Shown here: piece after piece, positions 1,502 to 23,400 of the stretch
How the letters are laid out: the number at the start of each line of letters is the position of its first letter
Position numbering within the stretch: the first letter of the stretch is position 1
Source: a virus
Length of the DNA: 23,400 nt
Direction: 5' to 3' (one strand)
Virus record (IMG/VR): IMGVR_UViG_3300008262_003986
Location: 1 to 23,400 of that record
Notes under the pieces: model-generated
The model's input: only the letters and a program-made list of their open reading frames with translations
Databases searched by the model: none
What the model was told of the DNA's origin: nothing
Translations under genes and position numbers: made by a program

Positions 1502-2430
1502 GCATACTAGTTACAGGCGGCGCTGGATTTATTGGAAGTAATTTACTCCATCATTTGGATGAATCTTTCGATGATGAGATTATTTGTATTGATAAATTAA
1601 CCTATGCTGCGGATTGGCACAATATTCCAGATTCTGTAAGATTTTACACTACAGATATTGTTGATGAACATAATTGTGAGTATATCTTTAAGAAGTACAA
1701 ACCATCTGTAGTTTTTCATCTTGCTGCAGAGAGTCATGTTGATAATTCTATTAAAGATTGTTCAAATTTTATCAGCAGTAATATCATTGGAACAGTTAAT
1801 CTTTTGAACCTAGCAGTTAAGTATCAAGTAGAAAAATTCATTCATATCTCTACTGATGAGGTTTATGGATCTGTTGATGATGGGTACTTTACTGAAAAAT
1901 CAAATTATGATCCTAGAAATCCTTACTCCGCTTCCAAGGCATCGAGTGAACATTTTGTAATGGCATACCACAATACTTATCAACTTCCAGTCATAATTAC
2001 AAATTGTTCAAATAATTATGGACCTAGGCAGCATACTGAAAAGATGATTGCCAAGGCAATTACCAATTTATTATCTGGAAAAAAAGTTCCTGTTTATGGT
2101 GATGGTAAGCAGATTCGTGATTGGTTATATGTTCAGGATCATTGTGAAGCACTAGTTGACATTTTGCACCGTGGGAGAATTGGTCAAAAATATAATATTG
2201 GTGGAGAATTTGAAATTAAGAATATTGATTTAATACGGATGATTCTAGACCGTATGAATATGAAAGAAAATATGATAGAATATGTAGAAGACAGACCTGG
2301 ACACGACCGCCGATATTCTACTGATATTACTAAAATTCGACACGAATTAAAATGGTCTCCTAGATTTGATATAGATAAAGGATTAGATAAAACTATTGCT
2401 TGGTATTGCGAAAGACATGATAACAATTGA
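1498..2430 (+). CDS. rfbB: dTDP-glucose 4,6-dehydratase-type SDR
   Basis: This is an extended short-chain dehydrogenase of 310 residues. It has the NAD-binding GGAGFIG at 7-13, the RmlB-type stretch HLAAESHVDNSI (74-85), the catalytic triplet Thr119-Asp120-Glu121 in STDEVYG, and the YxxxK pair Tyr143/Lys147. The family converts dTDP-glucose to dTDP-4-keto-6-deoxyglucose in the cytosol. At 310 residues it is shorter than bacterial RmlB (about 350). The nucleotide specificity is inferred from the motifs, and a CDP- or UDP-sugar relative is possible. No recognisable RmlA, RmlC or RmlD lies in the window, so the product may go to another sugar or rely on host enzymes. ATG 1498 overlaps the upstream stop by 4 bases. 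Confidence 0.85.
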   Translation: MSILVTGGAGFIGSNLLHHLDESFDDEIICIDKLTYAADWHNIPDSVRFYTTDIVDEHNCEYIFKKYKPSVVFHLAAESHVDNSIKDCSNFISSNIIGTVNLLNLAVKYQVEKFIHISTDEVYGSVDDGYFTEKSNYDPRNPYSASKASSEHFVMAYHNTYQLPVIITNCSNNYGPRQHTEKMIAKAITNLLSGKKVPVYGDGKQIRDWLYVQDHCEALVDILHRGRIGQKYNIGGEFEIKNIDLIRMILDRMNMKENMIEYVEDRPGHDRRYSTDITKIRHELKWSPRFDIDKGLDKTIAWYCERHDNN

Positions 2431-3370
2431 TTACTTACCTCATGCCAGACCAATTGAGTATTGGCGTTTAACATCACATTTTCTGAATAATATTAAACCA
2501 GAAAATAAGAAAAAAATTAAAGTTAATATCCTAGCTACAAATGATGAACCTTGGTTAGACTATCTTGATCCTGATATTGCTGCTCAGGTTATTATCTTCC
2601 CTTACAATGGAAATTATCTTGCCAAGGCAAAGTTGGCTAGTAAGGATGAAAATCCATATTCAATAAAGTTGGATGAAGATTGCTTTATGAGTAATCATGT
2701 TTGGGATTATTTTATTGAAAATATTCATATTTTAGATGACCCAGACGTTCTATTATTATCTCCCCTGGTTTCCACCAATATTCCTCTAGTAGATGAATTT
2801 ATCAATTCATTTATTGATGATGAGAAAGTTAAAAATAAATTGCATGAATTATTTTTAAATCGTTTAATGCCCAATAATCTTTGGGGAGTTGATTATACAT
2901 CATTGAACAAATATACTCTTGAGGCAAACGAATGGAATCCTGAGGAATATTATAATGGAGTATCTAATATTAATCACTATTATCGTGGGATTCATCCTGT
3001 TCGTATTTCTGTAGAAGCACAACTTCTTTTGAGTGAATATGTTCTGAATAACATGGATAAGTTCTTGGCAAAGAATGAATATTCACTGAAAGAATTTAAT
3101 AGACCATATTTCACTAACAATATCTTTGCCTTTAAAACTTCAGATTGGAGAAAAATCTTACAACTTCCAAATGATGGGTTTGATGAAGTTCCTTTGAGTG
3201 AATACAAAAACGCTCATAATAAAAAGTGTTATTACATTGATAATGGATTCTGTGTTCATCCAATGTATAATACAGTGTTTGGATTCAATCCAGAATTTAA
3301 TATTGGTATGAATAATGGACTTGAAAAGGAGATAGAAATTGTAAATCAATTTGTTGAGAAAATTTTATGA
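2417..3370 (+). CDS. putative GT-A-type glycosyltransferase
   Basis: The ATG at 2417, overlapping rfbB by 14 bases, gives 317 residues starting [16 protein letters not shown]. The frame is open a little further upstream, but only through a TTG inside rfbB. The region ILATNDEPW (38-46), then [10 protein letters not shown] and a DxD-like LDED at 85-88 preceded by a beta strand, fits the nucleotide-binding half of GT-A enzymes. There is no signal peptide or membrane segment. The C-terminal half has no motif that I recognise. The donor and acceptor cannot be predicted, and the call rests on the DxD region and the cluster context. The stop overlaps the following gmd start by 4 bases. Confidence 0.6.
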
Positions 3371-4368
3371 AAAGAGCACTAATCACAGGTATCACGGGTC
3401 AAGACGGATCTTATCTTGCTGAACTTCTCCTAGAAAAGGGATATGAAGTTCATGGCATTATTCGTCGTGCCTCTCAAATCAATACACAAAGAATTGATCA
3501 CATTTATGACCAAATTAAATTACATTATGGTGACCTGACGGATTCCACAAATGTAGTGAGAGTCATTCAATTGGTTCAACCAGATGAAATTTATAATCTC
3601 GGTGCTCAGAGTCACGTAAAGGTATCCTTTGAGATGCCTGAATACACTGCTGATGTCGATGGTGTGGGAACCCTCCGTATTCTTGAGGCTGTGCGTCTCC
3701 TGGGCATGGAGGGGCATGTACGCATCTATCAGGCGTCTACCAGTGAGTTGTATGGTCTTGTTCAGGAAACTCCCCAGAGTGAAACTACTCCTTTCTATCC
3801 CCGCTCTCCTTATGGTGTAGCAAAGATTTATGGTTATTGGATTACAAAGAATTATCGTGAATCATATGACATGTATGCTTGCACGGGGATTCTTTTTAAT
3901 CACGAATCTCCTCGTCGTGGTGAGACCTTCGTTACTCGCAAAATTGTTCGTGGACTTTCGCATATTTCTTGTGGATTGCAAGACGTTCTGCAACTTGGTA
4001 ATTTGAATGCAAAACGTGACTGGGGACACGCCAAGGACTTTGTAGAAGCAATGTGGTTGATGCTTCAACAAGATGAAGCAGATGATTATGTGATTGCTAC
4101 AGGTAAGCAATATTCAGTTAGGGAATTTGTGGAAGAAGCAGCACCTTACTTTGGTATGAAAATTATATGGGAAGGTGAAGGTATTGAAGAAAGGGGAATT
4201 GACAAATACACTGGTAGAACGATTGTTAAAGTCAATGCTAAATATTTTCGACCTGCTGAAGTGGAAACTTTATTGGGTGATGCCTCCAAGGCAAAGAAGC
4301 AATTAGGTTGGGAACCTAAAACTTCTTTTAAACAATTAGTTGAGGATATGTGTATCAATGGACAGTGA
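3367..4368 (+). CDS. gmd: GDP-mannose 4,6-dehydratase
   Basis: The 333-residue extended SDR has the Gmd-specific [12 protein letters not shown] (8-19), [13 protein letters not shown] (77-89), the active-site STSELYG (124-130), YGVAK with Tyr149/Lys153, and the [15 protein letters not shown] segment typical of Gmd. It converts GDP-D-mannose to GDP-4-keto-6-deoxy-D-mannose in the cytosol, the first step to GDP-L-fucose. The next gene encodes the second step, so substrate identity is well supported by context. Length is close to the bacterial family (320-370). ATG 3367 overlaps the preceding stop by 4 bases. Codon choice in the middle of the gene looks somewhat more G+C-rich than its neighbours, perhaps reflecting separate ancestry. 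Confidence 0.96.
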
Positions 4369-5287
4369 TTCTAGAGTATTAGTTGCTGGTGCCAACGGGA
4401 TGGTTGGATCTGCAATTGTCAGAAATCTTGAAATTAAAGGATATACTAACATCATCAAAGGAACTCGTGATGATGTAGATTTTACAAATCAAGATGAGAC
4501 GGAAAGATATTTTTGTTCCGAAGAACCCGAATATGTTTTTGTTGCTGCTGCTAAGGTTGGTGGCATTATGGCGAATAGTAATTATAAGGCAGATTTTTTG
4601 ACTGAGAATCTCCAAATTCAAACTAATCTTATCCAACAATCCTATAATTTTGGAGTAAAGAAACTTCTGTTTCTTGGTTCTTCCTGCATCTACCCTAAGT
4701 TTGCTACTCAACCAATCACTGAAGACCAGTTGATGACTGGTGCTCTAGAACCAACAAATGATGCCTATGCAATTGCCAAGATTGCTGGTATCATGATGTG
4801 TCAGGCATATCGTCAGCAGTACGGGTTTAATGCCATCTCATTGATGCCCACAAACCTTTATGGTATTAATGATAATTTTAATTTAGAGACCTCACACGTC
4901 CTTCCAGCGATGATTGCGAAGTTTCATGCTGCATTATCCCATAGTGAATACTATGAAGTTAAATTGTGGGGTGATGGTTCTGCAATGAGAGAGTTTCTTC
5001 ACGTTGATGACCTTGCAGAAGCCTGCTATGTTTGTATGCAACAATATAATGAATCAGACCATATTAATGTTGGTACTGGGGAGGATGTAACTATTAAAGA
5101 ATTGGCAGAAACTATTGCCAATATAGTTGGGTATACCCGTGATATTAATTGGGACACGACAAAACCAAATGGAACTCCAAGAAAAGTTTTAAACGTCGAT
5201 AAAATTAAATCACTTGGATGGGAACCAAAAATTAGTCTTTGTGAAGGTATTGAAAAAACTTACGAATGGTACAAATCAAATGGATGA
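4358..5287 (+). CDS. fcl: GDP-L-fucose synthase (epimerase/reductase)
   Basis: I start at ATG 4358, 11 bases inside the end of gmd, because the nucleotide-binding strand [13 protein letters not shown] then begins near residue 7 as in known enzymes. The 309 residues include Gly11/14/17 of the dinucleotide fold, [10 protein letters not shown] (64-73), GSSCIYPK with Ser108 and Cys110, and Tyr137/Lys141 in YAIAK. These match the catalytic Ser, Cys, Tyr and Lys of E. coli GMER almost position for position. The enzyme converts GDP-4-keto-6-deoxymannose to GDP-L-fucose with NADPH. Together with gmd it supplies the donor for the GT10 and GT11 enzymes downstream. Confidence 0.95.
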
Positions 5288-5624
5288 AACTGTCTTAAAA
5301 CCTTGGGGTTCTTATACCAATCTTCTTGATGAAAGTTATACCAAAGTTAAAAAAATAGTTATTAATCCTGGTGAATCCCCCAGTTATCAATATCATTTTA
5401 AAAGAAGTGAAATCTGGATAGTTGTAAAGGGAACTGCTGAGGTAAAAATTGATGATGTTATTATGCAGCATCATGTTGGAGACATCATTAAAATTCCAGT
5501 GCAAGCAGCGCATCAGATTACTAACATTGGTGATGATGAATTGATTTTTGTTGAGGTTCAGTTAGGTGAATACTTTGGTGAAGATGATATTGTAAGATTG
5601 GAGGATAAGTATGGCAGAGTATAA
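5280..5624 (+). CDS. mannose-6-phosphate isomerase-type cupin
   Basis: ATG 5280 overlaps the fcl stop by 8 bases and gives a compact 114-residue cupin. It has KPWGSY at 7-12, then NPGESPSYQYHFKRSEIW with His39 and Glu44, and a later His79 in QAAHQITN. These are the metal-ligand positions of the type II mannose-6-phosphate isomerase domain, also found at the C-terminus of ManC. The likely job is interconversion of fructose-6-P and mannose-6-P, feeding GDP-mannose synthesis. No GDP-mannose pyrophosphorylase or phosphomannomutase is seen nearby, so the host may supply those steps. The short length equals the isolated cupin domain; a longer frame upstream lies inside fcl and lacks a credible start. 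Confidence 0.85.
   Translation: MDETVLKPWGSYTNLLDESYTKVKKIVINPGESPSYQYHFKRSEIWIVVKGTAEVKIDDVIMQHHVGDIIKIPVQAAHQITNIGDDELIFVEVQLGEYFGEDDIVRLEDKYGRV
5600..5604 (+). promoter_or_regulatory. ribosome-binding site for the nucleotidyltransferase-kinase gene
   Basis: GGAGG lies 6 nt before ATG 5611, inside the end of the cupin gene. It fixes the start of the next gene, which overlaps the cupin by 14 bases. It is stronger than the sites before most genes upstream. Confidence 0.75.
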
Positions 5625-7164
5625 AGTATTACTTACCACAAGTGGTCTTGGATCTAGACTTGGTAATCTGACTAAGTTTACAAATAAAAGTTTGGTTAGG
5701 GTAGGAAATAAACCTGTTATTTCCCACATTATTGAAAGTTATCCTGGGGATGTTGAGTTTGTTGTAACTCTGGGGCATTATGGGACTCATGTAAAACAAT
5801 ATCTAACACTTGCACATTCTGATCGTGCAATTCAGTTTGTTGAAGTTGATAATTATATGGGGGAGGGTAGTAGCCTACTCTACTCCATTTCTCTGTGTGA
5901 AGAGTATTTGCAGTGCCCTTTTATTTTTCATGCTTGTGATACTATCTTACCTAAAAATTATATTTCTGGCATAGATTTTTCTACGAATTGGTCTATTGGT
6001 GGTAAGGGTGATAATAGTCAGTCCTATAGAACAATTAATTGTGTCAATGGAAAAATCGCGGCAATCAATGAAAAGGGTGAACAAAATTTTGATTTTGTTT
6101 ATGTGGGTGTTTCTGGTATTGAGCAGTATGCAGTATTTTGGGATGCTTGTAGAAGCACTCTCAAAACTGTAAATGTCAGTGATTTAAGTGATTGTCACGT
6201 TATTAGAAAGATGAATGATTTTTCTGTTGTGGCAATTGATGAGTGGTATGATATCGGAAATATTGATTCTCTTAAAGTAACTCGCTCAAAGATTAAAGGA
6301 ACAATTCATGTTCTCGATAAAGAAGATGAGAACATTTTTATGTTCGATGAGTTTGTAATTAAGTTTTTCTATAATAAAAAAGTATGCTATGATAGAGTTT
6401 TAAGAACTCAAAATCTTCAAGGATTAGTTCCTGTTCTATTGGGGAGTTCTGAAAACTTTTATAAGTATAGTTATGTTGAAGGAGATCTTCTTGCTGATGT
6501 AGTTGATTTGAATAAGTTTGCTAATTTATTGAATTGGTCAGCGCAAAATTTATGGATTCCTAAAGAAGATTCTTCATATGATGATAATGCCCTTTCTTTT
6601 TATAAAGATAAAACAATTCTAAGGATTGAAAAATTTTTAGAAAAATATAATATAGTTGATGGCGATGACTACATTAATGGTATGCATATTCCATCTATTA
6701 GTGAACTTATAGGGCAGATAGACTTTCAATCCATTATAGGAACGTTCCCGAGTGGATTTCATGGAGACTTTATTTTAGATAATATTCTTATTACTGATAA
6801 TAAATTTACTTTAATTGATTGGAGACAAGATTTTAATGGTAGCATAGATGCTGGGGATATGAGATATGATTTGGCAAAGTTGAATCATAATCTTATTCTC
6901 AATCATGAGATTTTGGCAAATAATCAGTATTCGATTGATTTTACCAGTGGAATACGTTGTGATGTTCTTGTTAAAAAATCTTTATTAGAATGCCAGGAAC
7001 TTCTAAGAGCATTTTGTAATGCAAATCAAATTTCGTATAAAACAATAGAAATTTTAACATCTTTGATTTGGATAAACATGTCTCCACTTCATGAACATCC
7101 CCTTGATATGTTTTTGTATTATTTTGGTAAGTACAATCTGTTTATTAATCTCAGGAGTAATTAA
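5611..7164 (+). CDS. nucleotidyltransferase-kinase fusion (LicC/LicA-like)
   Basis: This 517-residue protein has two domains. Residues 1 to about 225 form a sugar-1-phosphate/choline-phosphate type nucleotidyltransferase: TTSGLGSRLGNLTKFTNKSL at the phosphate-binding loop, NKPVI, metal Asp110 in HACDT, and an ending WYDIGNIDSL typical of such enzymes. Residues from about 240 on resemble the choline/aminoglycoside kinase fold, with the Brenner-type FHGDFILDN (His384, Asp386, Asn391) and a metal-binding IDWR (Asp403). One chain could phosphorylate a small alcohol or sugar and activate it with a nucleotide. The kinase N-lobe is short and diverged. Substrates such as choline, ethanolamine or a sugar cannot be chosen from sequence. 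Confidence 0.82.
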   Translation: MAEYKVLLTTSGLGSRLGNLTKFTNKSLVRVGNKPVISHIIESYPGDVEFVVTLGHYGTHVKQYLTLAHSDRAIQFVEVDNYMGEGSSLLYSISLCEEYLQCPFIFHACDTILPKNYISGIDFSTNWSIGGKGDNSQSYRTINCVNGKIAAINEKGEQNFDFVYVGVSGIEQYAVFWDACRSTLKTVNVSDLSDCHVIRKMNDFSVVAIDEWYDIGNIDSLKVTRSKIKGTIHVLDKEDENIFMFDEFVIKFFYNKKVCYDRVLRTQNLQGLVPVLLGSSENFYKYSYVEGDLLADVVDLNKFANLLNWSAQNLWIPKEDSSYDDNALSFYKDKTILRIEKFLEKYNIVDGDDYINGMHIPSISELIGQIDFQSIIGTFPSGFHGDFILDNILITDNKFTLIDWRQDFNGSIDAGDMRYDLAKLNHNLILNHEILANNQYSIDFTSGIRCDVLVKKSLLECQELLRAFCNANQISYKTIEILTSLIWINMSPLHEHPLDMFLYYFGKYNLFINLRSN

Positions 7165-7713
7165 ATGAATAGTGTTCAGTACGCATCTACTTTTATTCAT
7201 CCTAACTATAAACACGTATTGGAATTCGGCGTATTTGAGGGAAAAACTATTAATGAAATTAGACAAGCACTTGATGAGTCTTATCAAGTTTTTGGTTTTG
7301 ATTCATTCGAAGGATTACCAGAAGATTGGGAAAATACTGTGTGCATGAAAGGTCATTTTAACAGAGGTGGTTCTATTCCAAATATTGAAAATGTCAAATT
7401 TTTTAAAGGATGGTTTGAAGATACAATTCCAGAATACTTGAAGGAAGCAGACACTATTGGACTTCTTCATCTTGATTGTGACTTATATTCTTCAACAAAA
7501 ACAATTTTTGATAATTTGCACCCATATATTAAAAGAGGAACAATTATTGTTTTTGATGAATGGTTTTATCATGGGCATGAAATGACCAAGTATGGGGATT
7601 GTGAACAGAAAGCTTTTTATGAGTATGTAATAGAAAATAGGTTGGAGTGGGAGTTTATTCCATTTTATGATAATGAAAATCCAACTGATAGAAAAATTGT
7701 TAAGATTTTATGA
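7165..7713 (+). CDS. TylF/MycF-type O-methyltransferase
   Basis: The 182-residue SAM-dependent methyltransferase begins at ATG 7165, directly after the upstream TAA and 7 nt beyond AGGAG (7153-7157). It shows the SAM-binding LEFGVFEGKTI (19-29), the acidic end of strand 2 in FGFDSFEGLP (Asp46), the metal-site LHLDCDLYSST (Asp104, Asp106) and VFDEW (Asp131, Glu132). This pattern is that of the macrocin O-methyltransferase family (TylF/MycF), which methylates sugar hydroxyls in a metal-dependent way. It probably caps a hydroxyl on one of the cluster's sugars. It is shorter than MycF (about 250), lacking part of the N-terminal extension. The stop overlaps the next ATG. Confidence 0.85.
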   Translation: MNSVQYASTFIHPNYKHVLEFGVFEGKTINEIRQALDESYQVFGFDSFEGLPEDWENTVCMKGHFNRGGSIPNIENVKFFKGWFEDTIPEYLKEADTIGLLHLDCDLYSSTKTIFDNLHPYIKRGTIIVFDEWFYHGHEMTKYGDCEQKAFYEYVIENRLEWEFIPFYDNENPTDRKIVKIL

Positions 7714-8708
7714 ATTTTCCCAAATACTATATTGGCCCAATGAGTAAAAATGTTGTTGATTGTGTGATTAAACACGGTCAAAAACATTCCATTGGATTCA
7801 TTCCCTCCAGAAGACAGGTTGACTTTTCTGGGGGGTATGTTAATGGGTGGAATACTGAAACTTTTTCGGAGTATGTTAAGGGTAAAAATTCCAAAATCCT
7901 TCTATGTAGAGATCATGGTGGTGCGGGACAAGGGCAATTAAGTGATGATGGGCATGAATCTTTTAATTGTGACATGCAATATTTTGATTTAATTCATATT
8001 GATCCTTTTAGAGTTTCTGAAACAATTTATCAAGCAGCAGAGAAAACTGGTAATATTATTGAAAAATATTTCAATATTAATCCAGATGTGATGTATGAGA
8101 TTGGAACTGAGGAAGCAATATTTAAATATGAACCTGAGCATTTGAATTGGATGCTTGGGTATCTAAAAATTAGATTACGAGTGGAGCAATTTAATAAAAT
8201 TAAATATGCGGTAGTTCAATCTGGAACTGGATTAGATTTATCTACCAGAACAAATATAGGTAACTTTAACAATAAAAGATTGGAAAAATTTGTTGAGATT
8301 ACCAAAAACTTTGGAATAATGAGTAAAGAGCATAATGGAGATTATCTAACCGAATCTTTTGATGTTGAAATGAGATTCCAGGCAGGATTAGATGCCATTA
8401 ATATTGCGCCAGAGTATGGGCAAATAGAATCTGAATTTTATTTGGAGTCTTGCAAACAAGATACACAATTATTTGAACAGTTGTATCAGATATGTTATAA
8501 TTCAGGTAAGTGGAAAAAATGGATTAAGAATATTGATAGGACATCAAAGGAGCAGTTAATTATGACTTGTTGCCATTATGTTCTCTCCGATAATCAATTC
8601 CTAGAGAAAATAAAAGTCCATTTTCCAAATGCTGATAAGAAAATTCAAAAAAAAATTACTTCCCAATTAAAGTTACTGAATGAACAAACTAAAAATTATA
8701 GCGTTTGA
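7710..8708 (+). CDS. GatZ/KbaZ-like aldolase-family protein
   Basis: The 332 residues follow the tagatose-bisphosphate aldolase accessory subunits GatZ/KbaZ strand by strand. RRQVDFSGGY (34-43) corresponds to NQVDQFGGYT, and LLCRDHGGAG (64-73) to LGGDHLGP. LIHIDPF (94-100) corresponds to KIHLDCS, MYEIGTEEA (128-136) to the IGTE motif, and VVQSGT (168-173) to VVQPGV. KEHNGDYLT (206-214) and INIAPEYG (230-237) correspond to EAHSTDYQT and LKVGPALT. A TIM-barrel fold acting on a sugar phosphate is likely. Some GatZ-specific residues differ, and no partner GatY/KbaY is visible, so it may be a stand-alone enzyme with a new substrate. The 4-base overlap with the methyltransferase and 29-base overlap with the HAD gene suggest a shared pathway. 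Confidence 0.72.
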   Translation: MNFPKYYIGPMSKNVVDCVIKHGQKHSIGFIPSRRQVDFSGGYVNGWNTETFSEYVKGKNSKILLCRDHGGAGQGQLSDDGHESFNCDMQYFDLIHIDPFRVSETIYQAAEKTGNIIEKYFNINPDVMYEIGTEEAIFKYEPEHLNWMLGYLKIRLRVEQFNKIKYAVVQSGTGLDLSTRTNIGNFNNKRLEKFVEITKNFGIMSKEHNGDYLTESFDVEMRFQAGLDAINIAPEYGQIESEFYLESCKQDTQLFEQLYQICYNSGKWKKWIKNIDRTSKEQLIMTCCHYVLSDNQFLEKIKVHFPNADKKIQKKITSQLKLLNEQTKNYSV

Positions 8709-9057
8709 TCTTGATGATGTCATTTGTTATAGACCTAAGGGATATGAGCATTTGGGTCCGGACAAATATGATTATTGCGAACCCGATGATCATGTAATTG
8801 AATTAATCAATTCCCTGTACGAGGACGGTAATAAAATCATCATATATACTGCAAGGGGAATGTCTCAGTATAAAGGAAACGTTGCACTTATTTACAGTGA
8901 GTTGTATTCCAAAACTACTCAACAATTGGATGGTTGGGGATTAAAATATGACCAACTTGTAATGGGTAAAATTCATTATGATCTTTTAATTGACGATAAA
9001 GTATTAAATTCTTCTAATATTACGAAGGAAACTATTTCAAAATTTTTATATGAATAA
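8680..9057 (+). CDS. small HAD-superfamily hydrolase
   Basis: The 125-residue protein has the HAD motifs in order: FDLDD with nucleophile Asp10 and Asp12, YTARG with Thr57, Lys97 in GKIHYD, and the terminal acidic pair Asp105-Asp106 in LLIDDK. It has almost no cap insertion. Proteins of this size and motif spelling (IYTARG, DLLIDDK) occur in capsule and LPS clusters, where they are thought to dephosphorylate a sugar-phosphate intermediate. It overlaps the aldolase-like gene by 29 bases and the next HAD fusion by 8 bases, so the three are probably co-translated and work in the same branch. The substrate is unknown. Confidence 0.82.
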   Translation: MNKLKIIAFDLDDVICYRPKGYEHLGPDKYDYCEPDDHVIELINSLYEDGNKIIIYTARGMSQYKGNVALIYSELYSKTTQQLDGWGLKYDQLVMGKIHYDLLIDDKVLNSSNITKETISKFLYE

Positions 9058-10420
9058 GTTAGTCATTTTTGATCTTGATGGTGTTTTAATTGACAGTCGA
9101 GATATGCACTATGAAGCACTTAATCGTGCTTTGTCGAATGTAGATAGAAAGTACGTTATCACAAGAGATGAGCATCTAAGTCTTTATGATGGTCTTCCTA
9201 CTTCCAGAAAGCTCACTATGCTTACTGAGAGGAAGAATCTTCCTGTAGATAAGCACCAACAAATCTGGGAAGACAAGCAAAAAGCAACTCTTGAAATCTT
9301 TTCCAGATTGGAGCACGATCATGAACTGATGTACTACTTTCAGCAACTTAAAACTAAGGGATATCAGATTGCTGTTGCTAGTAATAGTATTAGAAATACT
9401 GTTAAATTAGTTTTATTAAGATTAGGAGTATTAGAATTTGTCGATTATTATGTGAGCAATGAAGACGTTGTTCGCAACAAACCATTTCCAGAAATGTATT
9501 GGAAGTGTATGACTGCTTGCAATGCTCTCCCTAAGCACACTGTAATTTATGAAGATAGTCACATTGGAAGGCAGGGAGCTTTGGATAGTAAGGCACATTT
9601 AATTCCGATTGAAAATAGAGATCATATGACTCAGGAAAAAATTAATGAGGCAATTAAAATTCTTTCCCAAGAAACAGTAAGTCATATTCCTTGGAAATCA
9701 GAAAAGATGAATGTTTTAATTCCTATGGCAGGTGCAGGAACTCGTTTTGCAAATGCTGGATATACATTTCCCAAACCATTGATTGAAGTTAATGGGAAAC
9801 CAATGATTCAGGTGGTTGTTGAGAACTTGAATATTGAGGCAAACTATACATTCATTGTTCAGAAGGAACACTATGAAAAGTACAGTCTTCAGTATCTATT
9901 AAATCTCATTGCACCTAATTGTAATATTGTTCAGGTTGATGGGATAACGGAAGGTGCTGCTTGTACAACGTTGCTTGCTAAACAATTCATTGATAATGAT
10001 TGTCCACTGGTAATGGCAAACTCTGACCAGTTTGTGGAGTGGAATAGTAATGAATGCCTGTACGCATTTAATGCTGATGGTATTGATGGTGGCATTCTAA
10101 CATTCAAATCAACTCATCCTAAATGGTCTTATGCTAAGGTCGGTGAAGATGGATTTGTTTCTGAGGTTGCTGAAAAGAAACCAATTAGTGATAATGCAAC
10201 TGTTGGAGTTTATTTTTGGAAAAAAGGTTCGGATTATGTGAAATATGCTGAGCAAATGATTGAGAAGAATATTCGTGTAAATAACGAGTTTTATGTTTGC
10301 CCAGTCTTTAATGAAGCTATCGAAGATGGTAGGAAGATACGTATTAAGGATATTGAAAAAATGTGGGGAATTGGAACTCCTGAAGATTTGAATTATTTCT
10401 TGGAGCACTATAAAGGATGA
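9050..10420 (+). CDS. HAD phosphatase-nucleotidyltransferase fusion
   Basis: The 456-residue chain joins two enzymes. Residues 1 to about 210 are a beta-phosphoglucomutase-like HAD protein with FDLDGVLIDS (Asp8, Asp10), the SNS motif at 111-113, Lys144 in RNKPFP, and EDS at 168-170. Residues 220-456 are a nucleotidyltransferase starting MNVLIPMAGAGTRF (loop 228-233), with PKPLIEVNGKPM (241-252), a metal-type NSDQF, and WGIGTPEDLNYF near the end. An internal ATG at the domain border (9707) has no good ribosome-binding site, so one polypeptide is expected. It could isomerise or dephosphorylate a sugar phosphate and then activate it with a nucleotide. The gene overlaps its neighbours on both sides. 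Confidence 0.85.
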   Translation: MNKLVIFDLDGVLIDSRDMHYEALNRALSNVDRKYVITRDEHLSLYDGLPTSRKLTMLTERKNLPVDKHQQIWEDKQKATLEIFSRLEHDHELMYYFQQLKTKGYQIAVASNSIRNTVKLVLLRLGVLEFVDYYVSNEDVVRNKPFPEMYWKCMTACNALPKHTVIYEDSHIGRQGALDSKAHLIPIENRDHMTQEKINEAIKILSQETVSHIPWKSEKMNVLIPMAGAGTRFANAGYTFPKPLIEVNGKPMIQVVVENLNIEANYTFIVQKEHYEKYSLQYLLNLIAPNCNIVQVDGITEGAACTTLLAKQFIDNDCPLVMANSDQFVEWNSNECLYAFNADGIDGGILTFKSTHPKWSYAKVGEDGFVSEVAEKKPISDNATVGVYFWKKGSDYVKYAEQMIEKNIRVNNEFYVCPVFNEAIEDGRKIRIKDIEKMWGIGTPEDLNYFLEHYKG

Positions 10421-16203: not shown

Positions 16204-16926
16204 ATGAGTCGTTGTTGTTTTATTATCTTTGCTCATTCAATAGATCAGGATGTTGATGACCTTGAAGATATGCTTGAGAATATACAATATTTTCATGATG
16301 ACTGTGATTTTATTGTTAATCATCCAAATATTGTTCATCCAAAAGTCAGAGTTCGTCATGTTCCCGGTACTCTTAATCAATCGGATTTTATTTTCGGTGC
16401 ATACAATAAAATTCTTAAAGAACTATCTGTAGAAGAGATTGAATCTTTTGACCATTTTTGTTTAGTGTCTGCCAACCAGTATTTTGTAGATAAAATTAAA
16501 TTTGAAAAGGGAATCAATTACGTTCAGTTTTATAATACGGAAAACTGGGATGACCTTTATACTGGAAAGGATATGGATAAAACTATCATTGGGTTTCCTC
16601 TTCAGCAACCCTATGGTAGATGGGATCCTAAAGATTTGTATAAGCAATATGGTATTGAAACCCCAATGGCATCAAATTGGGAATGCCTAACCATAACGAA
16701 GGAGTCAATGTTACTTGCTAAAGAAAATGTTGACTCTTGTGCAGAAACATATTATAATCAAGATATGATTAGTATTTTCCCTGGTTATATGGCACTTATG
16801 TCTAAACAACCTTGGGAGTTTCCTGCTCATTTTGGAACATATGACCCGTCTAATCGTGCTCTAAGAAATCAACTTCTTTTTCCAGAACAAGTTGTAGAAA
16901 AGAGAAATGATGGGTATTTTAGTTAA
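16204..16926 (+). CDS. putative glycosyltransferase, GT14-like
   Basis: ATG 16204 has AAGGAG (16193-16198) 5 nt upstream. The 240 residues start with CCFIIFAHSIDQDVDDLEDM, followed by FIVNHPN and FDHFCLVSANQYFV. This resembles the core-2/I-branching type (GT14) arrangement, where a short strand-rich start is followed by a conserved ...S..D.... block. The match is weak. The second half, with WECLTITKESM and PWEFPAHFGTYDP, has no motif I can name. The protein is soluble. Its position between GT-like genes supports a transferase or a glycan-binding accessory. The end overlaps the NTF2-like gene by 20 bases. Confidence 0.45.
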   Translation: MSRCCFIIFAHSIDQDVDDLEDMLENIQYFHDDCDFIVNHPNIVHPKVRVRHVPGTLNQSDFIFGAYNKILKELSVEEIESFDHFCLVSANQYFVDKIKFEKGINYVQFYNTENWDDLYTGKDMDKTIIGFPLQQPYGRWDPKDLYKQYGIETPMASNWECLTITKESMLLAKENVDSCAETYYNQDMISIFPGYMALMSKQPWEFPAHFGTYDPSNRALRNQLLFPEQVVEKRNDGYFS

Positions 16927-17236
16927 AGACGTTGACGCTCTTTCCAAGATGCTTAGTAATGATGTAACTTTAATTGATTGGGAAAATAATGCTAGTGGAA
17001 AAACTGATGTCTTAGAAGTTAATAAAAAGATCTTTGACTCATCCCCACAGATATCGGTCACTCCAATTCAATATTATGAATCTGATAAATCGTATGCGAT
17101 TAAAATTGAAGTTGAGATTTCTGACCCAAATGATTCTGACAGTGTAATAGAAGATGAATTTGTTATGAGTGTTTTGGATATTATCTCATTTGATGATGAT
17201 GGTTTAATTAAATCTGTAGAAGCTTATCTGAGATGA
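16907..17236 (+). CDS. small SnoaL/NTF2-like protein
   Basis: The 109-residue protein shows the layout of the NTF2/SnoaL cone fold. An N-terminal helix (VDALSKMLSNDVTLIDW) runs into the first strand. A helix around VLEVNKKIFD follows, then alternating long strands (ISVTPIQYYES, YAIKIEVEIS, FVMSVLDIISFD) and the usual ending DGLIKSVEAYL. Members include isomerases, cyclases and binding proteins for small ligands. The start may be ATG 16907 or ATG 16910; both overlap the upstream gene, and the end overlaps the next gene by 4 bases. In a sugar cluster it might act on a keto-sugar intermediate or simply bind one. Function is not assignable from sequence. Confidence 0.65.
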   Translation: MMGILVKDVDALSKMLSNDVTLIDWENNASGKTDVLEVNKKIFDSSPQISVTPIQYYESDKSYAIKIEVEISDPNDSDSVIEDEFVMSVLDIISFDDDGLIKSVEAYLR

Positions 17237-18045
17237 AAAAGAAGATTAATTTACGGGGAGATACATTTACCCATCTGACGGGCGGGAACAAGGGATATTC
17301 CGTTCATGGTAAAGAATCCAAATATATTGAGTGGGTTAAGGATGACTCACTTGATTGTACTTTTTATATTGATGATACTATTGCTACTGCTTTTAGAGAT
17401 AATGTATCTGGGAAAAAGTATGCTTGGATTTTGGAATCTATGTATATTAAACCAACTATAGTCAGTCAGGTTAAAAATAATCCAGATAAGTTTCTGGATA
17501 CTTTTGAAACAATCTTCACTCATAATCAAGAACTTCTTGCTCTAGACCCTAAATTTAAGTGGTGTCCAGCTCAGGGATTTTGGATTAAAGAACCAAAGAT
17601 ATGTGAAAAGACGAAAATGATCTCAATGATTTCGTCAAATAAATCTATGACTGAAGGTCAAAGATTGAGACTTCAATGGGTTGAGATGATTGGTGAGCAG
17701 TTAGATCTTTATGGTCGTGGGTTTAATGAGATTGCTAGTAAGGAAGAAGGTCTTTGTGATTACATGTTCTCGGTTGTAGTTGAGAATGGTTTTTACAAAT
17801 CCTACTTCACTGAAAAAATTATGGATTGTTTTGCAACAGGAACGATTCCTGTTTATACGGGATCCCCTGACATTGGTAAGTACTTCAATAAGGATGGTAT
17901 TATTGATTTAACTGAAGAATTTGATGTATCGGAAGATATCTATTATAGTAAGATGGATGCAATCAAAGATAATTTTGAAAGAGTAAAGCAATACGAAGTC
18001 CTTGAAGATTTTATTTACTTAAATTATTTTGGAGATAAAGAATGA
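17233..18045 (+). CDS. second GT10-like fucosyltransferase-family protein
   Basis: The 270 residues lack close identity to the first GT10 but keep the core signature: YMFSVVVENGFYKSYFTEKI with Glu184, Asn185 and the TEK at 193-195, then GTIPVYTGSPDI with Pro206 and Tyr208. The N-terminal acceptor half (for example LESMYIKPTIV, IFTHNQELL) is of the compact kind seen in phage and cyanobacterial proteins. GDP-fucose or a related GDP-6-deoxyhexose is the likely donor. It overlaps the NTF2-like gene and the following GT11 gene by 4 bases each. Weak conservation outside the core leaves donor specificity open. Confidence 0.8.
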   Translation: MKKKINLRGDTFTHLTGGNKGYSVHGKESKYIEWVKDDSLDCTFYIDDTIATAFRDNVSGKKYAWILESMYIKPTIVSQVKNNPDKFLDTFETIFTHNQELLALDPKFKWCPAQGFWIKEPKICEKTKMISMISSNKSMTEGQRLRLQWVEMIGEQLDLYGRGFNEIASKEEGLCDYMFSVVVENGFYKSYFTEKIMDCFATGTIPVYTGSPDIGKYFNKDGIIDLTEEFDVSEDIYYSKMDAIKDNFERVKQYEVLEDFIYLNYFGDKE

Positions 18046-18891: not shown

Positions 18892-19716
18892 ATGAAAGAA
18901 ATGAATGACGTTACTTACATAATGCCAACTAGAATTGAAAGTAATGATAGGTTAAGAAACATTATCACTTCTGTTACTTACCTGTTAAAAAATATCCCAG
19001 GTGCTAAAGTTCTTGTTAAGGAAGTTGATAATCAATCAGTATTCTCCGAACACGCTTTGCCAGAAATTCAAAAATATGTTTCTACTGATAATCTCAGACA
19101 TATTTTTGAACAAAACAATGAGGATGTATTCCATAAAACTCGTTATCTGAATGACCTAATTATTGAGTCTGATACTGAGATTGTTGTTAGTCACGATGTT
19201 GATGCAATCTATCCAGTTTCTAGTCATAGTATTGCATATGATTTAATCAAAAATGATCAGTGTGATGTTGTATATCCATATGGATGTGGTGTATGGCAAT
19301 ATCAAGTTTTAAATTATGAGAATATTTTTGACCAATTTTTGGGTAGTGATTTTAATATGGATGTTATAATGCCTCATTGTAGAACTGAGGCATCTACGAT
19401 TGGGTGGACTCAGTTTTATAATCGTAAAAAAGTCATTGAAGGATTTATGTGGAATGAGGCATTCCTATCATGGGGTGCTGAAGACTGTGAATTTTATTTT
19501 AGATTTAACGCACTGGGATACAGAGTTGGAAGAGTAGATGCTCCTATTTGGCACTTTGAGCATGGAAGAACTCATAACTCAGGGTGGAACAATCCTAAGT
19601 TTAAAGAAAATAATAATCTTTGGGAATGGATGCGAAATCAAACTTCTGAGAATATTAAGAGTTATTATGAAAATCAACCATATGTAAAAAGGAGACAAAA
19701 TTATGTTAGCGTTTAA
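18892..19716 (+). CDS. GT2/GT7-type glycosyltransferase
   Basis: ATG 18892 has GGAGG (18881-18885) 6 nt upstream, which selects this start over the longer open frame. The 274 residues begin VTYIMPTRIESNDRLRNI, with a DxD in VVSHDVDAIYP (Asp102, Asp104). Later comes WGAEDCEFYFRFNALGY, the galactosyltransferase-type WGxED element (194-200), followed by the metal-site-like HFEHGRTHN (221-229). This resembles chondroitin-polymerase-type or beta-1,4-galactosyltransferase-like enzymes. It lies between the two GT11 genes, so it may build the sugar that one of them fucosylates. The end overlaps the next start by 14 bases. Confidence 0.8.
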   Translation: MKEMNDVTYIMPTRIESNDRLRNIITSVTYLLKNIPGAKVLVKEVDNQSVFSEHALPEIQKYVSTDNLRHIFEQNNEDVFHKTRYLNDLIIESDTEIVVSHDVDAIYPVSSHSIAYDLIKNDQCDVVYPYGCGVWQYQVLNYENIFDQFLGSDFNMDVIMPHCRTEASTIGWTQFYNRKKVIEGFMWNEAFLSWGAEDCEFYFRFNALGYRVGRVDAPIWHFEHGRTHNSGWNNPKFKENNNLWEWMRNQTSENIKSYYENQPYVKRRQNYVSV

Positions 19717-20494
19717 TCATCTGGGACAACTTGGGAGACTTGGAAATCAAATGTTCCAATATGCTGCTGTTAGAGGTATCTCTGCAAATCGTGGATACGA
19801 TTTTGGAATCCCACCTTCGGCATTTAGTCATGTTTGGTTAGAGCATCAATTATTTGAAGTTTTTGATCTACCGCATCTACCCAGAAGGAATATTAAAAAT
19901 CTGGATAATGGTCATGCTCCAATTGCGAAGGAAAGGCACTTTGAGTTTGATGAACTTCTTTTCATGCAATGCCCCAATGAAGTATCTCTGTGGGGATTCT
20001 TTCAAAGTGAAAAGTATTTCCAAAACATTAGTCAAAGTATTAGAGAAGACTTTACGTTTAGGTCTCATATCAAAGACCCATGTGAACACATGATGAATGA
20101 AGTTGGAGATGCTATCTCCTTGCATGTGCGTAGGACAGACTATACAACAGACCCCAATCATACTGCTTTAAGTGTAAAGTATTATGAGAAGGCACTTTCT
20201 TATTTCCCGAGTGATGCTACTGTTATTGTTTTTAGTGATGATAACGAGTGGTGTCAGAATCAAGAATTGTTTGCTCCAGACAGATTTATGATTGCCGAAA
20301 ATAATCCTAATTCTGTTGATATGTGTCTCATGTCCCTTTGTAAGGGGCACATTATTGCAAATAGTTCCTTTAGCTGGTGGGGAGCCTGGTTGTCTGGTTC
20401 TGATGATGTTGTTGCTCCCAATGTTTGGTTTGGTCCAAACAATCAACACAAAACCACTAAAGACCTCATTCCTTCGAGGTGGACAGTTATATAA
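19703..20494 (+). CDS. second GT11 family fucosyltransferase
   Basis: The 263 residues share with the GT11 at 18042 the opening GRLGNQMFQYA (11-21), the block SEKYF, the element VFSDDNEWCQ and the closing IIANSSFSWWGAWL. The donor motif reads HVRRTDY (141-147), so the usual Gly is Thr. AAGGAG (19689-19694) lies 8 nt before the ATG. The similarity to the first copy is clear but spread, which points to an old duplication or separate acquisition, not a recent tandem copy. It likely uses GDP-fucose; the Gly-to-Thr change might affect donor choice or activity. The stop shares one base with the next ATG. Confidence 0.9.
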   Translation: MLAFNHLGQLGRLGNQMFQYAAVRGISANRGYDFGIPPSAFSHVWLEHQLFEVFDLPHLPRRNIKNLDNGHAPIAKERHFEFDELLFMQCPNEVSLWGFFQSEKYFQNISQSIREDFTFRSHIKDPCEHMMNEVGDAISLHVRRTDYTTDPNHTALSVKYYEKALSYFPSDATVIVFSDDNEWCQNQELFAPDRFMIAENNPNSVDMCLMSLCKGHIIANSSFSWWGAWLSGSDDVVAPNVWFGPNNQHKTTKDLIPSRWTVI

Positions 20495-21309
20495 TGTATT
20501 CTGTTTATGGTGGAACAGGATTTGTCGGTGGAAATTTCTGCCGACTTTTTTCTGACAATGTGAGTCTCCAACGAAGAGATGAAAGAAAACCAAATACTAA
20601 TGAGATAGTTTATTTTATCTCTACCGTTGACAACTATAACGTTCATACAAATATTACTTTAGATGTTGAAACCAATCTCAAGGTTCTATGCGAAGTTTTG
20701 GATTTTTGTAGAGATACTAATAATGTTTTCAATTTTATTAGCTCTTGGTTTGTGTACGGGGAAACTGAATTACCAGCAAAAGAAGAATACTACTGTCAAC
20801 CTACAGGATTCTATTCCATTACCAAAAAAGCAGCAGAAGATCTTTTGATTTCTTTTTGTAGGACTTATGGTGTTAAGTATCGTATTCTTCGGTTGTGTAA
20901 TGTAATGGGAAATGGTGATGGTAAAGTTTCTGCTAAGAAGAATGCACTAAGTTATATGATAGACCTTCTTAAAAAGAATGAGGATGTTTATCTTTATGAT
21001 GATGGCACACCAATTAGGGATATCATGCACGTTAATGATGTGTGTCGTGCTATTGAACTGGTTTGTAGAGAGGGTAATTTTAATGAAATATATAATATTG
21101 GAAGTGGACAACCCACACCAATCTCTGCTATAATAGAGACTGCAAAGGAATATTTGGGTTCATCCTCAAGTATTAAAAGTAAAGAAGCTCCCGAGTTTCA
21201 TAAGATTGTCCAAGCAAAAGATTTTTGGATGGACACAACCAAACTGAATCGACTTGGATTCACTCGGCAAATTAGTAATGACCAAATCATTCAACAACTA
21301 TGTCAATAA
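20494..21309 (+). CDS. NAD-dependent sugar epimerase/dehydratase (SDR)
   Basis: ATG 20494 sits in TAATG, sharing an A with the stop before it, and gives 271 residues. The nucleotide loop is GGTGFVGG (6-13) almost at the N-terminus. Then come the active-site strand NFISSWFVYGE (80-90), FYSITK with Tyr107/Lys111, and RDIMHVNDVCRAIE typical of extended SDRs. It is short compared with RmlB and Gmd. Because the RfbH-type 3-dehydrase lies immediately downstream, it may be a 3,6-dideoxyhexose C4 reductase or C2 epimerase, like the abequose, paratose and tyvelose enzymes. That is context only; the motifs do not fix the reaction. It overlaps the next start by 10 bases. Confidence 0.82.
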   Translation: MYSVYGGTGFVGGNFCRLFSDNVSLQRRDERKPNTNEIVYFISTVDNYNVHTNITLDVETNLKVLCEVLDFCRDTNNVFNFISSWFVYGETELPAKEEYYCQPTGFYSITKKAAEDLLISFCRTYGVKYRILRLCNVMGNGDGKVSAKKNALSYMIDLLKKNEDVYLYDDGTPIRDIMHVNDVCRAIELVCREGNFNEIYNIGSGQPTPISAIIETAKEYLGSSSSIKSKEAPEFHKIVQAKDFWMDTTKLNRLGFTRQISNDQIIQQLCQ

Positions 21310-22619
21310 ATCAAGAAGTTTCATCTTTCATTTCTAACCTTAAAGAGAAAGGTGAAAAACTTTTTCCTTATATTCATAATAATAATTATGTAAAGGGAGA
21401 AAGTAATGTTTACTATTCTGGTCCTTACTGGGATGAGAAAGAAGTTGCAGCAGCAATTACTACTTTGTTGGGTGGTAAATGGTTACCTGCTGGAGATGAA
21501 GTCAATAAGTTCGAACATCAATTCTCAAAGAAATTTGAATTCGATCATTCTGTAATGGTGAACTCTGGTAGTTCTGCCAATCTTGTAATGATTGCGGCAC
21601 TCAAAAAATATTTTGGTTGGAATGATGGTGATGAAATTATTGTTTGTGTTTGTGGGTTTCCTACAACCATCAATCCAATTATTCAGAACAATTTAAAACC
21701 AGTATTTGTTGATATTAGTTACAATGATTTGAATTGGGATATAAATCAAATCAAAGAAAAAATAACAACAAAAACCCGTGCAATATTTTCTTCACCAGTT
21801 CTTGCCAATCCTTACGATTACGATGCTGTCATCGATATTTGTAATCGTTACAATATCAAACTTATTGCTGATAATTGCGATAGTCTTGGATCTAAATGGA
21901 AAGGGGAATATTTAACTAAACACTCTGTAGCAGCATCTTGTTCCTTCTATCCTGCCCATCATATCTCTACGATTGAGGGTGGTATGGTTTCTTCTAATAT
22001 CAAAGAAGTCGTAGATATTGCTCGGAGCTTTGCCTGGTGGGGCAGAGACTGCTACTGTGTGGGTTCTCAGAATCTTTTGGAGTGTGGTGTTTGTGGTAAA
22101 AGGTTTGACCGTTGGCTTGAGGGATATGATAAAATTGTAGACCACAAATATGTCTTCGGAAATATTGGATACAATCTAAAACCAGCAGACCTTCAGGGTT
22201 CTATTGGTCTTGTTCAACTTGAAAAGTTTGATGAGATTCACCAAAAGCGTCGTCACAATAAAGAACGTCTTCATAAAATCTTTGCGAGTCTTCCTTTCTG
22301 CAGAGTGATTGATGAACTTGCTGAAGCAGAAACAAGTTGGTTTGGTGTTCCTATCGTATTTGAATATGACAAACCAGGATTAGTTAAATGGTTAGAAAGT
22401 CATAAGATTCAAACTCGTAACTATTTTGCAGGAAACATTCTAATGCATCCTGCATACAAACATTTAGAACCTGCTAGTAATTATCCAAATGCTTCCAAAG
22501 TTCTTGATAATGTTTTCTTTGTTGGATGTTCTCCCGTAATCACTGATGAAATGATTGATTATATCGAGGAGGTTGTGCAAGAATATAAAAATACTCAAAT
22601 TCAATATCACCCAGTTTAA
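21300..22619 (+). CDS. rfbH: CDP-4-keto-6-deoxyglucose 3-dehydrase-type enzyme (RfbH/E1)
   Basis: This 439-residue member of the DegT/DnrJ/EryC1 fold has NSGSSAN (88-94) for cofactor phosphate binding and IADNCDS (189-195). At the usual lysine site it has FYPAHHISTIEGG, with His220 in place of the Schiff-base lysine, the hallmark of 3-dehydrases. Cys193, Cys251, Cys253 and Cys262 (or Cys265) reproduce the [2Fe-2S] spacing of E1 (C-X57-C-X-C), with the last gap one residue longer than usual. ColD-type relatives lack the cluster, so RfbH/E1 is preferred. The reaction removes the 3-hydroxyl of a 4-keto-6-deoxysugar using pyridoxamine phosphate and electrons from a reductase (E3). No reductase, CDP-glucose dehydratase or glucose-1-P cytidylyltransferase of the usual type is seen. 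Confidence 0.92.
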   Translation: MSINQEVSSFISNLKEKGEKLFPYIHNNNYVKGESNVYYSGPYWDEKEVAAAITTLLGGKWLPAGDEVNKFEHQFSKKFEFDHSVMVNSGSSANLVMIAALKKYFGWNDGDEIIVCVCGFPTTINPIIQNNLKPVFVDISYNDLNWDINQIKEKITTKTRAIFSSPVLANPYDYDAVIDICNRYNIKLIADNCDSLGSKWKGEYLTKHSVAASCSFYPAHHISTIEGGMVSSNIKEVVDIARSFAWWGRDCYCVGSQNLLECGVCGKRFDRWLEGYDKIVDHKYVFGNIGYNLKPADLQGSIGLVQLEKFDEIHQKRRHNKERLHKIFASLPFCRVIDELAEAETSWFGVPIVFEYDKPGLVKWLESHKIQTRNYFAGNILMHPAYKHLEPASNYPNASKVLDNVFFVGCSPVITDEMIDYIEEVVQEYKNTQIQYHPV

Positions 22620-22621
22620 TT

Positions 22622-23400
22622 ATGGACAAGAATAAAGCAATTTATAAACTCAAGGGTCTTCCTCCTATCTATTATTTGAATTTGGATGGGCAACCAGAAA
22701 GAAGAAAATATATGGAAGACCAATTTGAATATTGGGAAATAGAAAATTATACTCGTATCTCTGCTTATGATGGTAGAGAAGATGATCTAAGTGATATCAT
22801 TAGAGGTCGTTATCCAGATAATATGCTTTCTGGTGAAGTTGGGTGTGTAACATCCCATCTCAAGGCACTAAAACATTGGTTAGAAAATAGTGACGATCCT
22901 TGCCTCTTGGTAATGGAGGATGATTGTGATTTGGAAGTTGTAAAACACTGGCCATTTACTTGGAAGGATTTTTATTCTAAGATTCCTTATGACTATGATG
23001 TTGTGCAATTGGCAATTATTAACCCAGCAACGGTTCATGTGCAACTTCATCATAGGTTTGTAAATGATTTTTCAACAGCATGTTATCTGATTACTCGTCA
23101 CTATGCACAGAAGCTTGTTAGTCTTCATTGCCGTGATGACAAGTATAAACTAGACCAAGGTGTTAAACCCCGTGCTGTTGCCGATGATTTGATTTATAAT
23201 TCTGGGAATACATTTGCAATTCCATTATTCCTTTATAAAATTGAATTGGGATCTAGTATCCATGACATTCATATTGATGTCTTTCATAGAAGCAGTTACG
23301 AAGGACTTTGGCAATTCTGGAGAAATCAATCGACGGATGTTTCGGATTGGAATGCAATATTCAATTATGATCCTTACTTTGGAAGACTCCCTCCTGGATT
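22622..23400 (+). CDS. GT25 family glycosyltransferase (cut by window end)
   Basis: ATG 22622 lies 2 bases after the rfbH stop and the frame stays open to the last base, giving 259 codons so far. The start LPPIYYLNLDGQPERRKYME is the classical GT25 opening. It is followed by SGEVGCVTSHLKAL (residues 74-87) and the acidic triad LLVMEDDCD (about 96-104). Later, ADDLIYNSG matches the GT25 C-terminal acidic element. It fits LPS-type beta-galactosyltransferases but differs from the shorter GT25 at 13570. The 3' end is outside the window, so the full length is unknown, and the gene train continues beyond 23400. Confidence 0.85.
   Translation, partial: MDKNKAIYKLKGLPPIYYLNLDGQPERRKYMEDQFEYWEIENYTRISAYDGREDDLSDIIRGRYPDNMLSGEVGCVTSHLKALKHWLENSDDPCLLVMEDDCDLEVVKHWPFTWKDFYSKIPYDYDVVQLAIINPATVHVQLHHRFVNDFSTACYLITRHYAQKLVSLHCRDDKYKLDQGVKPRAVADDLIYNSGNTFAIPLFLYKIELGSSIHDIHIDVFHRSSYEGLWQFWRNQSTDVSDWNAIFNYDPYFGRLPPG

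Follow-up and report, generated by a model that had tools for sequence, protein, structure and literature searches.

A Predicted E1-Like Sugar 3-Dehydrase and Its SDR Partner in a Cyanophage Surface-Sugar Cluster

How might a phage that encodes an E1-type sugar 3-dehydrase supply that enzyme with substrate and electrons, when neither the CDP-sugar enzymes nor the reductase E3 accompany it? The question is raised by the virus contig IMGVR_UViG_3300008262_003986, whose entire record, 23,400 bases in length, is referred to here as the window. The explanation that we favor, whose steps depend on one another and to which as a whole we assign a probability of roughly 0.55, is that the phage E1-like 3-dehydrase and an SDR whose gene overlaps it would together make a dTDP-3,6-dideoxyhexose with electrons from ferredoxin. 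If this is true, cyanophages probably build an unusual 3,6-dideoxysugar, perhaps on photosynthetic electrons.

By its gene content, the source of the window is a T4-like cyanophage. Cyanomyovirus marker families are present, and the marker at 626-886 matches 461 phage records, every one of them named for Synechococcus, Prochlorococcus, cyanophage, or marine virus. The DNA matches that of Synechococcus phage S-SRM01 across parts of the first 5.3 kb, and a tRNA-Pro is encoded. A reading made earlier from the letters alone (the sequence-only reading) had proposed a probable phage cluster, a proposal that the viral origin of the contig, the markers, and the S-SRM01 match bear out. The remainder of the window is a surface-sugar cluster containing a CTP_transf-like enzyme, RmlB, Gmd, Fcl, a PMI-type cupin, glycosyltransferases of families GT10, GT11, and GT25, and methyltransferases (Table 1). 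Large surface-sugar clusters have been known in cyanophages since P-SSM2. Two composite frames are also found in the window: HAD phosphatase and nucleotidyltransferase domains are fused within a single ORF (9050-10420), and a nucleotidyltransferase-like N terminus is joined to a weak APH-like kinase domain (5611-7164).

Table 1. Positions in the window of the genes and codons discussed, with their predicted roles
Feature	Position	Strand	Basis and remarks
CTP_transf-like nucleotidyltransferase ahead of RmlB	989-1501	+	PF01467; same gene pair in S-H68
RmlB, dTDP-glucose 4,6-dehydratase, predicted substrate source	1498-2430	+	TIGR01181, 409.7 bits (cut-off 365.1); adjoins SDR-E1 in related phages
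Gmd and GDP-L-fucose synthase (Fcl) pair, separate GDP-fucose branch, rival substrate source	3367-5287	+	TIGR01472, 558 bits (cut-off 415); NF047922, 459.5 bits (just below cut-off 500)
GT11 family glycosyltransferase, directly 5' of SDR	19703-20494	+	PF01531
Extended SDR, predicted NDP-4-keto-3,6-dideoxyhexose C4 reductase	20494-21309	+	3' end overlaps dehydrase start by 10 nt; YxxxK, no Asp-Glu pair; RMD-like fold
Predicted phage-type E1-like [2Fe-2S]/PMP NDP-4-keto-6-deoxyhexose 3-dehydrase, 439 aa	21300-22619	+	Alignment, profiles, tree, fold
Cys193 codon, predicted cluster ligand 1	21876-21878	+	Invariant; pairs with E1 C193
His220 codon, predicted catalytic base replacing aminotransferase lysine	21957-21959	+	Invariant; pairs with E1 H220; role from PMC8987622
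Cys251-Tyr252-Cys253 codons, predicted cluster ligands 2 and 3	22050-22058	+	Both Cys invariant
Cys265 codon, predicted cluster ligand 4	22092-22094	+	X11 after Cys253 (classical E1: X7); invariant; pairs with E1 C261
GT25 family glycosyltransferase, interrupted by record end	22622-23400	+	PF01755

The dehydrase reading frame begins with ATG and contains a sole stop, at its end. In a phmmer search of the PDB (E about 1e-71), Yersinia E1 ranks at the top (3bcx, 242.6 bits; 3bb8, 238.4 bits), followed by ColD (2gms, 174.3 bits), and the protein matches PF01041, the profile of the DegT/DnrJ/EryC1 fold, at 237 bits. His220 of the query pairs with His220 of E1, and the register of the alignment is fixed because the entry for the H220K mutant of E1, 3bb8, has lysine at exactly this point. 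Cys193, Cys251, Cys253, and Cys265 align with Cys193, Cys251, Cys253, and Cys261 of E1. These four cysteines and His220 are invariant in all 84 viral rows (window included) and in 19 of 19 cellular homologues, 103 sequences of a family in which the mean column identity is 66%. On these alignments, the match to E1 combined with four invariant ligands is far beyond chance. An AlphaFold model of the dehydrase (pLDDT 85.6) has its best match in E1 (3bcx, TM 0.83/0.87, as against about 0.75/0.85 for ColD), the cluster loop at residues 247-289 having low pLDDT.

E1 and SpnQ carry a four-cysteine cluster, and ColD is without one (review, PMC8987622). ColD, a GDP-4-keto-6-deoxymannose 3-dehydratase, has the catalytic histidine and the 3-dehydration chemistry in common with the phage enzyme, but it is driven by glutamate, has no cysteine at the positions of ligands 251, 253, and 265, and gives a clearly lower score. 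Assignment of the phage protein to the ColD type is ruled out by the cysteines, the score, and the position in the tree described below. The E1-type fold and residues are almost certainly present; judged from the sequence, the ORF is a full-length PMP/[2Fe-2S] E1-type sugar 3-dehydrase, a class assignment that is well supported, and it very likely encodes a functional [2Fe-2S] 3-dehydrase. The sequence-only reading had described a complete E1-type 3-dehydrase with cysteines at E1-like positions 193, 251, and 253 and a further ligand at 262 or 265. The frame, the histidine, and the first three cysteines all held up, the cysteines falling on the positions of the cluster ligands in the alignment with E1. 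As to the fourth, the choice falls on Cys265; position 262 is asparagine or glycine in 14 of the 84 viral rows, which rules it out.

The same reading had spoken of an RfbH/E1-type enzyme; E1-type is apt, but RfbH itself is not. In the dehydrase tree, which is a quick search with SH-aLRT support and no bootstrap, the phage-type enzymes form a clade (97) that is sister to the classical RfbH/E1 enzymes plus the Streptomyces dTDP-type enzymes (98), with ColD as the outgroup. The window protein is placed among cyanophage contigs and groups with E1 rather than ColD; neither of the two outcomes that the sequence-only reading had named as refuting an E1-type enzyme, cysteines off the ligand positions or a firm ColD placement, was obtained. 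Against the RfbH equivalog NCBIfam NF011936 it scores 370.4 bits, below the curated cut-off of 423. Because the clade is separate and this cut-off is not reached, the dehydrase is assigned by sequence to a subfamily that is rich in phage members and sister to E1/RfbH. Classical RfbH, represented by 17 rows from cyanobacteria, Desulfobaculum, and Yersinia, and two Streptomyces enzymes likewise have all four cysteines without exception; ligands 3 and 4 are spaced X7 in these rows and X11 in the phage type, and 15 further positions are fixed differently. With E1 (AscC of Yersinia pseudotuberculosis) and RfbH of Salmonella, the phage enzyme shares the fold, a full-length alignment, the histidine, the four cluster cysteines, and an adjoining NDP-sugar reductase. 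It differs from them in its identity of only about 32-36%, in the C-X11-C spacing, in falling below the equivalog cut-off, and in having no RfbF, RfbG, or E3 alongside.

A pattern scan of IMG/VR recovers at least 557 related stretches. The dehydrase of the 642-kb phage LR756502 groups apart from the rest, with cellular sequences, and therefore viral acquisition of the gene has probably occurred at least twice. A gene of Synechococcus phage S-H68 (QBP05885.1), 66% identical and in the same clade as that of the window, already bears the name 'CDP-4-dehydro-6-deoxy-D-glucose 3-dehydratase', an annotation by name only. It lies in a cluster with RmlB, RmlC, and the SDR, and near-identical genes are found in S-B43, S-B05, RN05-S, and RB11-B; this type differs from the window in the presence of RmlC and in the genes that intervene between SDR and dehydrase. 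A search of the open literature found no paper tying cyanophages to a 3-dehydratase or deoxysugar pathway. The kind of enzyme is already known; what sets this variant apart is the subfamily, the cassette, the dTDP and ferredoxin setting, and the viral home.

The functional unit is the SDR together with the dehydrase. In 86 of the 103 loci, an SDR of about 270 residues is encoded no more than 12 genes from the dehydrase; in 57 it immediately precedes the dehydrase, and 35 of these show the identical 10-nt overlap, an arrangement that spans cyanophage, Bacteriovorax, Bacteriovoracales, and Nitrospirales sequences. The SDR retains the glycine-rich motif and YxxxK, with SSWFVYG replacing the TDEVYG of 4,6-dehydratases. 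Since the Asp-Glu pair of the dehydratases is absent, the SDR would be a reductase or an epimerase rather than a dehydratase. By fold it is nearest to RMD, which reduces 4-keto-6-deoxymannose with NADPH, and only a little further from 4-epimerases; the SDR is likely to be the C4 reductase of the dehydrase product. An apparent fusion of SDR and dehydrase (L090, 740 residues) was rejected, its extra N terminus being a wrong-frame extension with no SDR match. An SDR resembling GDP-mannose 3,5-epimerase, as judged from sequence, is encoded at 16372-17439 of locus L003 and by 51 related genes, often immediately 3' of the dehydrase.

The place of the SDR is taken by other enzymes in some relatives. 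One clade of related phages encodes a YerE-like ThDP enzyme, absent from the window, immediately 3' of the dehydrase (eight loci and one cut copy); eight of these nine loci lack the SDR. The best PDB match of the ThDP enzyme, at 386.6 bits versus 234 for acetolactate synthase, is 8rph, the YerE-like enzyme JanthE (PMC12188165). YerE attaches a two-carbon unit to CDP-4-keto-3,6-dideoxyglucose, the product of E1 (PMC12247030), and the phage YerE/JanthE-like genes suggest viral synthesis of branched-chain 3,6-dideoxysugars. Because different enzymes suited to using it adjoin the same dehydrase, a 4-keto-3,6-dideoxysugar is indicated as the dehydrase product. The varied partners are good independent evidence for this product, which we consider quite likely. 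One of the phage carboligases lies behind the dehydrase at 7624-9306 of locus L073, and the same gene recurs in L069, L077, L078, L079, L080, L082, and L083. At 8853-9998 of locus L021, a sugar C-methyltransferase (PF08484) overlaps the start of the dehydrase where the SDR would sit, a possible third fate of the intermediate.

The substrate is probably dTDP-4-keto-6-deoxyglucose, which gene context favors over all other candidates combined. RfbF is found in none of 37 viral records and RfbG over cut-off in none of 48; as a control, a Salmonella plasmid returned the expected RfbF, and RfbG is annotated on the same plasmid. The lack of a CDP-sugar front end, remarked on earlier for the window, is thus general. 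RmlB is over cut-off in 22 of the 37 records; many of the other 15 are fragments, but they also include phage LR756502 and a 106-kb contig. RmlB, SDR, and E1 are contiguous in ten loci, and the order RmlB-RmlC-SDR-gene-dehydrase is seen in many others. In cellular loci of the phage type, RmlA/RmlB flank SDR-E1 (L091, L101), and in L130, the second copy of a Nostocales genome, RmlB comes shortly before the dehydrase. In the phage collection, the six records with the SDR are the same six with a dehydrase of at least 66% identity, and all six have RmlB, as compared with about one other cyanophage record (by organism tally) among the 461 with the marker gene; the Fisher p of about 5e-13 for this association is overstated, since the six records represent about two lineages. 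About 19 kb separate RmlB from the dehydrase in the window, where no consumer of the RmlB product other than the dehydrase was found, Fcl accounting for the product of Gmd. The sequence-only reading had offered the products of RmlB and Gmd as alternative substrates; the former fits well, but the latter fits poorly, for Gmd occurs in 3 of the 37 viral records and is absent from S-B43, RN05-S, and S-H68.

A dTDP setting with RmlB and no E3 recalls, here by gene context, SpnQ and the actinobacterial dTDP-sugar [2Fe-2S] 3-dehydrases. Unlike the phage enzymes, the Streptomyces homologues lie inside the classical clade (54% identity to Salmonella RfbH), and a 2,3-dehydratase, which the phage cassette lacks, stands alongside in one of the two Streptomyces loci read.

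As for the reductant, an E3-type Fer2 fusion occurs in none of the 37 viral records, in which all Fer2 frames are 98-102 residues long; Salmonella, as a control, gives a 345-residue frame where E3 sits. The absence of E3 first noticed in the window is likewise general. From this absence and that of the CDP-sugar front end it had been concluded that the phage must borrow host reductant or use another substrate, but the reductant need not be the host's alone. Ferredoxins of 98-102 residues are encoded in 9 of the 37 records. In the relative closest to the window (L005, whose dehydrase is 88% identical), the genes run GT11-SDR-dehydrase-GT25-Hli-like-ferredoxin, which puts the plant-type ferredoxin 1.2 kb 3' of the dehydrase; as worked out from coordinates, the next closest (L006) has one equally far from it. 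Cyanophages commonly carry ferredoxin genes for unrelated reasons, so the nearness of one to the dehydrase is weak evidence and speaks for availability rather than use. SpnQ, which is E1-like and has a dTDP substrate, works with ferredoxin/ferredoxin reductase or flavodoxin in place of E3 (PMC8987622). Taken with the gene context, this makes ferredoxin a modestly favored candidate for the electron donor to the dehydrase.

In the proposed pathway, RmlB would convert host dTDP-glucose to dTDP-4-keto-6-deoxyglucose, which would form a Schiff base with PMP on the dehydrase. His220 would take a proton from PMP, and the C3 hydroxyl would depart. The glucoseen would then be reduced in two one-electron steps via the dehydrase's own [2Fe-2S] cluster, with electrons from a plant-type ferredoxin (phage PetF or the host photosynthetic ferredoxin) replacing a dedicated E3. 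Reduction at C4 of the resulting dTDP-4-keto-3,6-dideoxyhexose by the overlapping SDR would yield the dTDP-3,6-dideoxyhexose. The sugar may be of the paratose/abequose type or, in phages that also have RmlC, an L-sugar of the ascarylose type. Glycosyltransferases of the cluster would then transfer the sugar to a glycan on the surface of the infected cyanobacterium. In the related clade, the YerE-like ThDP enzyme acting instead of the SDR would give a branched 3,6-dideoxysugar. Only tentatively do we put forward the broader scheme, in which a phage-borne, ferredoxin-driven dTDP-3,6-dideoxysugar pathway would draw its electrons from photosynthesis and have an exchangeable second step, either reduction by the SDR or two-carbon branching by a YerE-like enzyme, with neither CDP-sugar enzymes nor E3. 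The finding names a specific predicted product, a 3,6-dideoxysugar, and the smallest cassette that could be tested, two or three genes. It points to an additional role for phage ferredoxins and to an E1 branch that depends on neither CDP nor E3.

Other substrates and other roles have to be weighed against this pathway. The same chemistry might act on CDP-4-keto-6-deoxyglucose supplied by the host's RfbF and RfbG and draw on the host's E3 or ferredoxin, so that the phage would merely divert a host CDP-sugar. Cyanobacteria do carry such systems: 59 of the 292 sampled have a dehydrase match at E <= 1e-60, nearly all of the classical RfbH type; RfbF and RfbG stand alongside in all four classical loci examined more widely; and RfbG homology is seen in most of the short classical loci, which are about 3-4 kb long. 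Moreover, two cyanobacteria with the phage-type enzyme carry RfbF elsewhere in the genome. Neither of the two, however, has RfbG over cut-off, both genes are absent from every viral record searched, and the cassette travels with RmlB, all of which makes diversion of a host CDP-sugar unlikely. Use of GDP-4-keto-6-deoxymannose from phage Gmd, leading to a colitose-like GDP sugar, seems less likely still. ColD uses this substrate (PMC8987622), Gmd and Fcl are both present in the window, the nearest fold of the SDR is a GDP-sugar reductase, RMD, and many loci have an adjoining SDR that resembles GDP-mannose 3,5-epimerase by sequence; but Gmd is rare among the viral records, Fcl in the window already uses up its product, and the tree and cysteines exclude the ColD type.

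The pairing of SDR and dehydrase could be incidental, with the SDR belonging to a rhamnose or 6-deoxytalose pathway alongside RmlB and RmlC. These three genes do stand together in many phages, one gene separating the SDR from the dehydrase. The overlap is nevertheless kept in bacteria and phages without RmlC, among them three loci (L093, L096, L100) without adjoining Rml genes, and the YerE-like enzyme replaces the SDR in one clade; we consider an incidental pairing improbable, on a level with the GDP-sugar alternative. It is very unlikely that the dehydrase serves in vivo as a 4-aminotransferase making a dTDP-4-amino-4,6-dideoxysugar. SpnQ without its reductase does transaminate with glutamate and PLP, but E1 has no such activity (PMC8987622); in the phage-type enzymes the lysine is replaced by an invariant histidine and the four cluster cysteines never vary, and once a 4-amino sugar had formed, neither the SDR nor a YerE-like partner would have a substrate. 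Whether cyanophage surface-sugar clusters are functional or filler was described as not known in a comparative study, and non-functional filler for headful packaging has been proposed for cyanophage LPS clusters (PMC3037559). In the present case the catalytic residues are intact in every homologue, and pairwise comparisons put dN/dS at 0.03-0.10 for the dehydrase and at 0.05-0.14 for the SDR (Nei-Gojobori; approximate values, dS often exceeding 1). The dehydrase gene is under strong purifying selection and is maintained; because dN/dS is low the filler idea is disfavored, and for these genes it is hardly credible. The sugar may serve to alter the surface of the infected cell, for example against other phages, a role proposed for P-SSM2 (PMC2984593).

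Two Prochlorococcus single-cell contigs (L085, L095) contain the SDR-dehydrase pair nested in the viral clade, and represent either phage-to-host transfer or phage contigs. In a Woesearchaeota (archaeal) metagenome-assembled homologue (L103, 7974-10724), an intein with LAGLIDADG domains (PF14890, PF14528) lies directly after the active-site His-His-Met. The cyanobacterium Nostocales HT-58-2 has two copies of the phage-type dehydrase (L089, L130), each near cytochrome P450-like and macrolide-type glycosyltransferase-like genes, as judged from sequence, and these copies perhaps take part in natural-product glycosylation.
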